In this document: positions 53,245 to 58,904 of the stretch, piece by piece
How the letters are laid out: every line of letters begins with the position of its first letter
Numbering within the stretch: position 1 is the stretch's first letter
Assembly (NCBI GenBank): GCA_027923505.1
Contig: BROI01000002.1
Location: forward strand, 1,674,001 to 1,738,000
DNA length: 64,000 nt
Source: Mayamaea pseudoterrestris
Taxonomy: Eukaryota; Bacillariophyta; Bacillariophyceae; Sellaphorales; Sellaphoraceae
Direction: 5' to 3'
The notes under the pieces: generated by a model
The model's database searches: none
What the model was told of the DNA's origin: nothing
What the model saw: the letters and a program-made list of their open reading frames with translations, nothing else
Program-made: the position numbers and the translations under genes

Positions 53245-53595
53245 ATGAGATGTGTCGTTGAGTGGCCATGGCATGGGGCATTTGACTGGTATGAATCCAA
53301 AACGTGGCCATTCCCACAGTGTAGGCCATACCAATGGTGTAGTGCTTCCAGGCAGTCCGTTTTGCACCATTTATGACTTTGCACATGTCTACGGCACACC
53401 CTGGACAGGTTTTGCCCGACTCATTGGGTGGTTGAGTGGCCTGGGCATGGGGCATTTGACTGGTATGAATCCAAAACTGCCGGAGGTTGCCATTCCCACA
53501 GTGTAGACCATACCAATGTTGTAGGGCTTCCAGGCAGTCCTTTTTGCACCTATTGAGACTTTGCACATGTCCATGGCACGCCGTGGACATGCAGC
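53245..53595 (+). repeat. 182-bp repeat family, right block
   Basis: Two partial units, landmarks TTTGCACC at 53361 and 53543 (182 bp apart), in the same orientation as the block at 39530-39855. It directly abuts the end of the satellite. Confidence 0.8.
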
Positions 53596-53607
53596 TACGC
53601 GTACGAC

Positions 53608-53617
53608 GTACCGGTAC
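53608..53617. promoter_or_regulatory. GTACCGGTAC palindrome
   Basis: A perfect 10-bp palindrome 148 bp upstream of the YIPF6 ATG, just outside the 182-bp repeat. Identical to the sites at 370 and 27415. Confidence 0.4.
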
Positions 53618-53764
53618 AGCGCTAAAAAAATGTCGCGGCAAGTAACGATGCGACTCGAATCTTTAGCTTTCCATGCATGCGTTCGACTGGCTCGCAACGA
53701 TGTGGTCATCTGCCGCTTTGCTTCAGTCGTTTCAGTTTTCCCTCCTTTTCGTAATCATAACATA

Positions 53765-54616
53765 ATGTCAAGCCAAGCTCCGCCCTCATGGGCAACTCCA
53801 TCCCCAGTCACTCAAACAAGCTTGCAACCATCCCAAGCCGCTCCACAATGGGCGCAACCAATAGCATCACAGCCTCAAGTTGCCTCCGCCGACGACCACA
53901 TGGCCGAACTCTTTCGTCCCTACAGCACGCTGGATGAGCCAGTCAGTGAAACAATCATGCGGGACGTTCGCGCCGTCTACACCAAGCTAAAGATTGTTCT
54001 GCGTCCGCTCGATCGGCGCCTGACGCTTTCGCCAGCCGCCATGTACAGCATGGTTTCCACGAGTAGTGATGATCCGGATAACAACAACAATAATAATAAT
54101 AATACTGCCAATGCAGCAGGATCAAATGCCAATACATCCGACAATCAACTTTCGGAGAATGATCGTCAAGTCATTAACGAACTAAAGGATTGGGATCTAT
54201 GGGGACCGCTCATTCTCTGCTTGATCCTTGGCGTTGTCCTTAGCTTCAAGGCGCCCACCAACCAAGCGTCCATTGTCTTTGCCTCGGTCTTTGTCACTGC
54301 GTGGGCTGGATCGACGATTGTCACCATGAATGCGCAGCTACTTGGCGGAACCATTAGTTTCTTTCAGTCGCTCTGCGTGCTTGGCTATAGCAACTTTCCA
54401 TTGGTCTTGGCGGCGTCAGCGATTGGAATCATGCGCATCTTTGTTCATACCTGGATGTGGATCGACATGATTATTGTTTCCGTTGGCTTCCTTTGGGCGA
54501 TTCGGACGAGTAGTGTTTTCATGAGCCTCTACGTCAAGCCGGAGCGGCGGTTGCTGGCGCTGTATCCAGTCTTCTTCTTTTATGTTTTCATGAGCTGGCT
54601 GATTCTGCTGTTTTAA
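53765..54616 (+). CDS. YIPF6: YIP1-family Golgi protein, YIPF6-like
   Basis: 283 aa from the ATG at 53765 (MSSQAPPSWATPSP). The N-terminal ~120 residues are Pro/Gln/Ser-rich and cytosolic, with an LDEPVSETIMRDVRAVYTKL segment and an Asn-repeat. DWDLWGPLILCLILGVVLS, close to the YIPF6 signature, starts a five-helix domain: IVFASVFVTAWAGSTIV, TISFFQSLCVLGYSNFPLVL, IDMIIVSVGFLWAIRTS and LALYPVFFFYVFMSWLIL. YIP1 proteins work in ER-Golgi vesicle traffic with Rab GTPases. First gene to the right of the repeat island. Confidence 0.92.
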   Translation: MSSQAPPSWATPSPVTQTSLQPSQAAPQWAQPIASQPQVASADDHMAELFRPYSTLDEPVSETIMRDVRAVYTKLKIVLRPLDRRLTLSPAAMYSMVSTSSDDPDNNNNNNNNTANAAGSNANTSDNQLSENDRQVINELKDWDLWGPLILCLILGVVLSFKAPTNQASIVFASVFVTAWAGSTIVTMNAQLLGGTISFFQSLCVLGYSNFPLVLAASAIGIMRIFVHTWMWIDMIIVSVGFLWAIRTSSVFMSLYVKPERRLLALYPVFFFYVFMSWLILLF

Positions 54617-55454: not shown

Positions 55455-56418
55455 TTATTTACTCGCCTCGTTACTAGCCGTTCCAAGATGCAAGTAATCG
55501 GCATTCACTTTGCGTCCCATATGCCATGCCGAGCTCCCAAAGAGCGCAATGTTCACGCTACACAATGCGTAATTGATAGGAGTCACCAATAGAGCGTATC
55601 GCGAAAAGAAAAAGCCCGTCAAGGTCAAGGCCGTGTACTGCGGCAGAGAAATCTTATCCGTCGGCCGCTGCAAGTCGAAAAAGGAGGCGCCACTAATCAT
55701 CCACTTTGACATTGGGGCCCAAAAGTGTACTGCATATTGAGGAGAAAAGAGAGGGAATATTCTATAGGTTAGATAGCAGAAACAAATAGCTAGCTGACCC
55801 ATTCAAAGAACGTCTCTTAGTTGACGCACCTGTAAACGGTCCAGCCGGAGCCGCAGCAACCTTGGAAACAACGCCATAGTCACTCTTGGTCAGCATGTTC
55901 CGAACCGTCGGTGCTCCAACAATGGTTCCAGCAATCAAGACTCCTCCAATTGCCGCCTGCTGCAAAATTCTACTGGCCTCATCCTCCTCTCCGTTACTCA
56001 TCTTGTATTCAACAGCCCGTCGAAACTGATTCAGCTGCGCTCCAATATTCGCCAAGTGACATCCACAAAGCAGCAAATTGCGTGGCTGCACGATCCAGGC
56101 CCAGCGAGCAAACAAGCTCGAGTAGACAATCAAGACGGGCGTCATGGTCAAACTGATCACTTCCGGGCCGCTCGAGTAGGCGTCCCAAATGGCCGACGCG
56201 GACATGCCCCAGCCGGCCAAGGCGCCAAAGCCGCCCCATAGTTCGGCGCTGTACCACCAGCCAGTCTTTTTGGGAGATGATGTTGATGATGACGAAGTAA
56301 AGGTTCGGCGAGTCGGTGGTGCAATTTTGCAAGCACTCGATCGAGCGGCAGACGGAACGACGAGCGATCTTGTCGTTTGCAGCACCAGCCGGCTTGATTG
56401 AGACGCTGCAGAAAACAT
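55455..56418 (-). CDS. MPC1-MPC2: Mitochondrial pyruvate carrier, MPC1-MPC2 fusion, two exons
   Basis: Exon 1 is 56418-55830 and exon 2 is 55729-55455; the 100-bp intron has GTGCGT and GCAG ends. Joining gives APAGPFTVHFWAPMSKW, a normal MPC2 start, so the join is not an artefact of two genes. The product is 287 aa. Residues 1-~45: Ser/Arg-rich mitochondrial presequence. MPC1 module ~57-138: GFGALAGWGMSASAIWDA, MTPVLIVYSSLFARWAWIV, QPRNLLLCGCHLANIGAQLN. Linker ~139-190 holds an extra hydrophobic helix, AAIGGVLIAGTIVGA. MPC2 module ~191-270: WMISGASFFDLQRP, LTGFFFSRYALLVTPINYAL. MPC normally works as an MPC1/MPC2 heterodimer importing pyruvate across the inner membrane. Confidence 0.9.
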
Positions 56419-56964: not shown

Positions 56965-58904
56965 CTATTTCTTGCCCTTGGCCTTTTTAGCAGCTTTTCG
57001 GGCAGCTCTCTTTTGCGCCTCGGCTTCAAGCTCGTCGAGAACCTTCTTTGTATCCTCATCAGGTTCCTTCTTCGTCTTGAAGTACTCGGGCATGTCTAAT
57101 CCGGTAACTCGGCTCGTTCCACTCGGCAACAGGAGGACTGTACACTTGAAGTGTGCCACCTTGCCACTATGTTCATGCAGGCTCGGATACGGTTGCAGCA
57201 AGGTACGCGTCACACATTCCTGCAATCCGAGTCGAGCTTTTCGAACATCGTTCAAGTGGCGCAAGGTAAATGGTAACGTCGGAAATTTCTTGTCCACTTC
57301 GGCCAGCAATGCGCGCGAAGCCTGTACCTTGAGTTGGTAGGTTTGGTCGACGTTACGCTTAAAGACCGTCGTGCGCATATCGCCCGGGCGTGCATTGCCG
57401 TCGCCCGAGCTCATGGCAACGTCGACGGCGTATACTTCATACTGCTCGAATGTGCATTCCGGCAGCTTTTCTTCCACTGCCTGGTGCTCCTCCGGACTCG
57501 TCTTTCGAAGAGCAACTTCCTTGACGCCGTCCAATACGTAGCGCTTCATTTGATGCATGCGCACCGAGTGAATTGGCGTGACGCCATAATTGTTGGCGAC
57601 ACGCTCCACCGCCTCGGTCACTTCGGTATTTTTCTTGCCGGCAGCAATGGCGTGAGCGGCCACCAACATGGCATTGTAGGCAGCAACGGCAACATTGCCA
57701 GTCTCCTCGTCGGGTTCAGGCGGAGCCTGGTCTTCAGATTCGGGAACGATGCAAGTGTGCGCGGCAACGGCAATGTATCCATCAATGTGACAACCAAGAT
57801 CAATCTTGACAATGTCTCCCACTTTAAGTACTGGCTGTGTACAGCGTTGAAGCGAAATACAGATGTGTGAGTCAATCACGTGATATATAGTTGTTGGCCA
57901 GCATCCTTCCGAACATAATGCGACCATGACAAAGAGAGGGTCTCGTGAACAGAGTAGACAAGTGGCCGGCCACGAACAAGCGCAAAATGGTTTGCTTCAG
58001 TTAGAAAACATCCCCATTCGCCTTGTCCGTCAATCTTCCTGTTGAACGCGGGTCTGTGCGCAAGTCCGAGAACGCCTCTCCCGCCGAAACGAAAGAATTG
58101 AACAGGGCAGAACCAAAATTCATCAATCCCACCCCATTTGGCGTACAATCGTCGCGCACTTGGTACGACCACAACAGGTTTTGTTTTTAATCAAAATGCA
58201 CGCTTGACAAGCAAATCGAATGCATCTTCTCGCCACGACATTTCATCGGCACGTACCCTTTCTTCACTCAGCAATGGACTATGGTTGCAGACAACGTCAT
58301 TCACCGAAACACAAACGGGAAAGGCAATTCCTCGATCAATGACTTGTCCATTGATCTTCTTTGTGTACAGCTTGGAGCATCCCTGCGTAATGACCGTGTG
58401 TCCAAACTCGCAGAGCTCAATCACCTTTTTTCCCGGAAGGCATTGCTTGACAAGTCCCTCCAAAGCGAGATTGACAATCTTGGCTGCTTCCTGGTACTTT
58501 GTAGTAACGTTGCTGTGAAAATAAAAGACGAGAGATGTATGTTAGCCATAAGTGTATCGAAGGAAGCATTTAGACGACACTACGGGCAGCGACGACGGAT
58601 TGCACCTCGGCGAAAAGCATGGCGGGAGGTGCCAACGTCACGGACAAGGCACGAGAAATTCCTCTCTATGGACTCACAAAGCACTTCGCCTAAAGACTTG
58701 CTTCCTCCATCAGCAGCAGCAGTTTCGATACTGATTATTCTCACACTCTGCTGTCGCGCATCGTCCTTGCGCATCGTCCTTGCGCGCCACTCACCTGTCG
58801 GATAGATCCGTCACCTCCTCCTCGTCGTCCATTTTCTCCGCAACGTCGCTGAGCTCGACGCCTCCGCCGGTAATGACTTCCTCCTCTTGACCGTTATCTG
58901 ACAT
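56965..58904 (-). CDS. PA2G4: Proliferation-associated protein 2G4 (EBP1), three exons
   Basis: Exons 58904-58795, 58512-58257 and 57834-56965; introns of 282 bp (GTGAGT/ACAG) and 422 bp (GTACGT/ACAG). The product is 411 aa, close to human PA2G4. The acidic start MSDNGQEEEVITGGGVELSD leads into SNVTTKYQEAAKIVNLAL, GKKVIELCEFGH, KKINGQVIDRGIAFPVC, then KVGDIVKIDLGCHIDGYIA and the methionine-aminopeptidase-like pita-bread fold. The metal-ligand set of active aminopeptidases is not kept, as in the family. The C-terminal Lys/Ala-rich tail (KRAARKAAKKAKGKK) matches the known RNA- and ribosome-binding end. Role: ribosome-exit-site and growth-control factor. Confidence 0.93.

Follow-up and report, generated by a model that had tools for sequence, protein, structure and literature searches.

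A fused MPC1 and MPC2 gene of the diatom Mayamaea pseudoterrestris very probably encodes a single-chain mitochondrial pyruvate carrier

We analyzed a window of 64,000 nucleotides from the diatom Mayamaea pseudoterrestris (the whole stretch of DNA presented above, from contig BROI01000002.1), in which a two-exon gene on the minus strand (Table 1) very probably encodes a mitochondrial pyruvate carrier (MPC) made as a single chain: an MPC1 half and an MPC2 half, with three membrane helices each, are joined by a linker of fixed length that crosses the inner membrane once. By its sequence, the protein is a single-chain variant of the MPC family (PF03650, TC 2.A.105). An earlier note on this DNA had read the gene as an MPC1 module followed by an MPC2 module in one polypeptide, and this reading was supported by subunit-specific scores, by complete fusions in 179 of the 243 homologues retrieved, and by the genome, in which PF03650 has no match elsewhere. 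The fusion probably works because of its linker, which resembles a membrane helix and was absent from that note.

The joined exons gave 287 codons followed by a stop codon, and the NCBI entry P0001, "pyruvate transporter mpc1 [Mayamaea pseudoterrestris]", is the same 287-amino-acid protein, letter for letter; the coordinates, splice sites and frame proposed earlier were thus borne out. Reading through the intron leads to an in-frame stop. The unspliced frame is open only to position 55762 (a stop-to-stop frame of 225 amino acids), and the MPC2 half lies outside it. As had been claimed, the intron interrupts the MPC2 half close to its start, with A190 to T196 in exon 1, the codon of V197 divided, and the rest in exon 2. 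A trace of the intron was seen in P0002, the closest listed relative apart from P0001, which has extra residues, apparently an unspliced intron, between PFT and VHFW; judged from the sequences, the intron position seems to be common to P0002 and M. pseudoterrestris and different in others. An insertion behind HFWAPM was observed in P0111, and P0122, P0143 and P0186 diverge from the conserved sequence behind VHF or SKWL.

The profile search suggested in the earlier note found PF03650 in two stretches of the 287-amino-acid protein, with a total of 157.9 bits against a curated cut-off of 27; the isolated halves scored 62.9 and 94.8 bits, and the matches of the halves covered residues 60–140 and 191–264. 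A scan of this protein against Pfam-A, with matches accepted up to an E value of 1, returned PF03650 alone, and the SWEET family (PF03083) was not matched. To assign the subunits, the halves were compared with solved structures, all of them human chains. The N half scored 58.8 bits with MPC1L, 54.9 with MPC1 and 12.5 with MPC2, and the C half scored 64.8 bits with MPC2, 27.1 with MPC1L and 24.3 with MPC1. The two halves therefore do not find their best match in the same subunit, the result that the earlier note had named as fatal to its proposal. The gene also departs from the canonical form of the carrier, a heterodimer of two separate polypeptides such as humans and yeast have, in being one spliced frame with no other genomic PF03650 match.

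The M. pseudoterrestris assembly (30.6 Mb in 41 contigs) was scanned for a separate MPC gene and none was found, the PF03650 matches falling in just two places, which are the two halves of the fusion; a search of the assembly with the whole protein led to the same two places. The lack of another match argues strongly for the fusion being the sole MPC of this genome, but not conclusively, because introns could conceal a badly split second gene. In a single scan of viral contigs, no relative was found.

Three protein searches gave 243 distinct proteins (120 of the 726 matches were listed in the first search and 120 of 158 in the third). Because the two half-profiles cross-match each other, the best match per half was used, and a fusion was counted as complete when the N half exceeded 80 bits and the C half exceeded 100 bits and lay downstream. 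On this basis both halves were complete in 179 proteins. The remaining 64 were fragments or broken frames: 30 with the N half and linker, 18 with the N half, linker and part of the C half, 15 with the N half only, and one other. The complete fusions include those of the diatoms Seminavis robusta, Epithemia clementina, Cylindrotheca fusiformis and Nitzschia sp., and also that of the pelagophyte Pelagophyceae sp. CCMP2097 (P0213). A truncated model from a second pelagophyte, Aureococcus anophagefferens (P0151), still includes the MPC1 half, the linker and the MPC2 start. These pelagophyte members indicate that the fusion is not restricted to diatoms. Seven complete sequences are open reading frames of MMETSP transcripts (P0021, P0053, P0069, P0101, P0178, P0213 and P0217), a point in favor of a single mRNA in those species. 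In a search that covers close relatives only, no convincing stand-alone MPC1-type protein near the diatom N half was found among the 8 inspected of 33 proteins of 76–166 amino acids: P0122, P0135, P0143, P0148 and P0151 extend past the linker to the MPC2 start, the frame of P0147 breaks once the linker has begun, the gene model of P0133 is partial, and P0153 has an early stop. The fusion cannot be recognized from the names in public databases, where the M. pseudoterrestris protein is called only "mpc1" and that of Seminavis robusta (P0065) "pyruvate carrier 2".

The residues of the substrate pocket, whose positions were mapped through alignments with the human chains, are kept in nearly all of the 179 complete fusions. 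H121 (MPC1 H84) is present in every one, as are Y99 and F103; K205 (MPC2 K49) is present in 178, with one gap, and N256 (MPC2 N100) in 176, while one sequence has Ser and two have a gap there. No block of the protein diverges more than the linker (mean p-distance 0.55, compared with 0.25 in the MPC1 half and 0.16 in the MPC2 half), and that of M. pseudoterrestris is only 33% identical to that of P0213 and 20% to that of P0161. Its length is 49 amino acids in 165 of the 179 fusions, residues 155–169 are free of D, E, K, R, H, N and Q in 177 (the exceptions are P0104 and P0227), and P170 is invariant. When 15-residue segments were compared across residues 53–275, more than 90% of the sequences were free of these polar residues only in the linker stretch and in helix 1 of the MPC1 half, and hydrophobicity was 1.52–1.77 in the former vs 0.62–1.13 in the latter. 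Together with the predicted fold, in which a helix spans residues 145–178, the linker is probably an extra membrane helix between the halves.

The N terminus looks, from its sequence, like a cleavable mitochondrial presequence. The first acidic residue of the M. pseudoterrestris protein is E59. Of 120 homologues, 108 begin with Met and have 15 or more residues ahead of residue 41; per 100 residues, this leading region contains 0.6 acidic and 19.4 basic ones, and in 97 of these 108 it is free of acidic residues altogether. The pattern R-x-hydrophobic-[SAT] occupies positions 38–41 in 90 of the 120, and residues 37–41 of the M. pseudoterrestris protein resemble an R-3 type cleavage site. We infer a switch to the presequence route of import. 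Regarding its history, we see an even chance that MPC1 and MPC2 were joined a single time, in the ancestor of diatoms and pelagophytes, and that a new membrane helix arose between the two, the MPC family thereby repeating independently the step from two-chain semiSWEET to one-chain SWEET. The carrier would at the same time have gained a cleavable presequence, perhaps leaving the TIM22 carrier pathway of yeast MPC proteins for the presequence pathway, and would be a natural single-chain, obligate 1:1 MPC.

From the gene structure, the identity of the halves, the conserved pocket and linker and the predicted fold, we infer how topology, transport, proton coupling and targeting may be arranged. 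In human MPC, the N terminus of each subunit has been placed in the intermembrane space and the C terminus in the matrix, with a pseudo-twofold axis relating the subunits, and the closest structural relative is semiSWEET (PMC12007569); SWEETs consist of two triple-helix units joined by a membrane helix (PMC7761412, PMC7407832). If the halves of the fusion are parallel as in human MPC, the chain must cross the membrane once between them, and the linker helix would do so, giving a 3+1+3 arrangement as in SWEET transporters. The substrate pocket would lie at the interface between the MPC1 and MPC2 halves, where H121 and K205 would bind the carboxylate of pyruvate and N256 its keto group. H121 would be protonated on the side of the intermembrane space and deprotonated in the matrix, so that pyruvate would enter with a proton. 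The fusion itself would fix the stoichiometry, and the protein would be a proton-coupled pyruvate importer with the two halves at 1:1.

Several points weigh against this picture. The orientation of MPC is disputed, and in older work MPC2 was given a matrix-facing N terminus and MPC1 two helices (PMC12007569, PMC7407832). The structure model was built from an alignment of fusions only and is compatible with cleavage in vivo. Residue 106 (human MPC1 F69) is W in all 179 complete fusions, and residue 238 (human MPC2 W82) is F in 178 and V in one; one deposited human chain, 9o9t_B, has F at the W82 position. Human MPC2 W82 stacks on inhibitors, and the thermal shift caused by inhibitors is gone in W82A (PMC12007569), so that with F in its place the inhibitor response of the fusions may differ. 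The helical moment of the linker segment is low (0.10–0.11) but discriminates poorly, the MPC helices ranging from 0.03 to 0.25. A rough sum of insertion energies, made without position weights, gave the linker segment (5.97) no advantage over other helices of the protein (4.23–5.9). In structural alignments, the N-terminal part of several human MPC2 chains falls on the linker helix, in its second half (model residues from 157–163, rmsd 4.0–6.8 Å), and part of this helix may correspond to the MPC2 surface helix. Finally, Traller et al. (2016; PMC5124317) suggested transport in the opposite direction as a possibility.

In that case the carrier would mainly export pyruvate from mitochondria, the lower half of glycolysis also running there in stramenopiles, in which a mitochondrial pay-off phase of glycolysis is described (PMC11115451). 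The His and Lys of proton coupling are kept, by which an alkaline matrix should drive import, and we consider export unlikely. The divergence of the linker would suit a precursor that is cut there, leaving a working carrier that is again a heterodimer of two proteins; a mere cut site would need neither a near-constant length nor a hydrophobic core, and this explanation appears clearly improbable. Another reading takes the linker helix as a surface helix that does not span the bilayer. In human MPC2, the first membrane helix is immediately preceded by an amphipathic helix and a linker helix (PMC12007569). The linker helix predicted for the fusion is long (145–178), and human MPC2 chains, 8yw6_B (model 157–284) among them, align their N-terminal part with its second half; we regard this reading as very improbable.

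Medrano-Soto et al. (2020; PMC7176098) described several MPC proteins with seven putative helices in a 3+1+3 layout and favored their origin by internal duplication, which here would mean that a four-helix MPC precursor was duplicated, the first helix was lost, and the halves diverged later. Duplication predicts the layout, and the C half still weakly matches MPC1L (27.1 bits). However, a duplication after the split of MPC1 and MPC2 would leave the two halves most alike, whereas each is far nearer its own human subunit (58.8 vs 12.5 bits and 64.8 vs 27.1 bits, among human chains), and the same authors state that fusion cannot be excluded. The subunit-specific scores thus favor fusion, and we find duplication highly improbable. 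A wrong joining of two genes, either with separate transcripts or by an error of assembly or annotation, has almost no probability given the same fusion in 179 homologues, including the seven MMETSP reading frames, and the conserved MPC2 start split by an intron. A chance match or misassembly was ruled out by the identical NCBI protein and the 179 complete homologues.

Table 1. Features of the fused carrier gene in the window (residues are numbered in the 287-amino-acid protein).
Feature	Position	Strand	Remarks
Exon 1	55830..56418	-	589 nt; presequence, MPC1 half, linker and start of the MPC2 half; residues 1–196 plus one base
Presequence-like N terminus	56299..56418	-	Residues 1–40; R-R-T-F / T at 37–41
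MPC1 half	55999..56247	-	Residues 58–140; predicted helices 58–83, 93–109 and 115–141; H121 = human MPC1 H84
Linker	55852..55998	-	Residues 141–189
Proposed linking membrane helix (TM4)	55909..55962	-	Residues 153–170; model helix 145–178
MPC2 half, first part	55830..55851	-	A190–T196 plus the initial base of codon 197
Intron	55730..55829	-	100 bp, GT-AG (GTGCGT...CAG), phase 1, inside V197; same splice implied by NCBI protein P0001
Exon 2	55455..55729	-	275 nt; remainder of the MPC2 half and stop codon
MPC2 half, second part	55491..55729	-	V197–L276; predicted helices 197–214, 225–244 and 250–276; K205 = human MPC2 K49, N256 = N100

Three other frames lie near the gene. The upstream neighbor (56968–57996, minus strand) matches Peptidase_M24 with 33.2 bits and resembles the proliferation-associated 2G4 type. 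A frame on the plus strand (53525–54613) contains a Yip1 domain (54.1 bits) and a run of Asn. A small convergent frame (54853 to about 55130, plus strand) has an acidic start and then a Cys-containing stretch, which seemingly continues in another frame (FYCSKCHTV and YDLPDKATSWRC); from its sequence it is perhaps a split small gene, and its first 54 residues had no Pfam match.

A natural single-chain MPC, which very probably is what this gene encodes, bears on two disputed points, namely whether one MPC1 and one MPC2 form the working unit and how the subunits are oriented. That diatoms and one or more pelagophytes keep a fused 1:1 chain supports the heterodimer, and the linking membrane helix, if true, would require parallel halves. 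Being one gene, the fusion also offers a ready construct for expression and inhibitor tests, and would represent a two-chain transporter becoming a SWEET-like one-chain transporter. The worth of the finding lies in a mechanism made testable.

As a report of a fusion it is not new, since the fusion of MPC1 and MPC2 is already known in diatoms. The earlier note, which took such a natural fusion as perhaps undescribed, was wrong in this respect: besides the proteins of Medrano-Soto et al., Traller et al. reported a fused MPC1+2 gene in Cyclotella cryptica (g13004.t1) "and other diatoms". Among the open-access papers examined, fused or seven-helix MPC proteins were found only in these two (PMC5124317 and PMC7176098) and in PMC7407832, which repeats the latter. 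The relevant passages of PMC10909473 and PMC7761412 contain no natural MPC fusion, and in PMC7350735, PMC5715807 and PMC6198282 the term "mitochondrial pyruvate carrier" was met in the reference lists only. A hydrophobic linker of near-constant length and free sequence, a SWEET-like model, pelagophyte members and a presequence were not found together in the passages available in this literature. No paper on a pelagophyte fusion was found there, most subscription journals lying outside the search. The same literature gave no paper on the mitochondrial pyruvate carrier in Perkinsus, to which, judging by its accession range, the MPC protein C5K6B0 presumably belongs.

The gene of Cyclotella cryptica is the same thing in another diatom, one gene with MPC1 and MPC2; the passage that reports it covers diatoms only and mentions neither a linker helix nor pocket residues (PMC5124317). 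Like the diatom fusion, C5K6B0 (TC 2.A.105.1.8) has an MPC1-like first half, an MPC2-like second half and an extra central membrane segment (PMC7176098). The human MPC1/MPC2 or MPC1L/MPC2 heterodimer (PDB 9giv, 8yw6, 9mnw and 9o9t) has the same two halves with the same H84, K49 and N100, but it consists of two chains without a linking membrane helix, and its MPC2 W82 and MPC1 F69 contrast with F and W in the fusion. The predicted fusion model shares seven helices, the 3+1+3 order and the SWEET fold with SWEET transporters (PDB 5ctg, 5cth and 5xpd), from which the protein differs in its low identity (10–11%), the lack of a Pfam SWEET match and the different substrate expected. Its layout is thus SWEET-like, although Pfam does not place it in the SWEET family.
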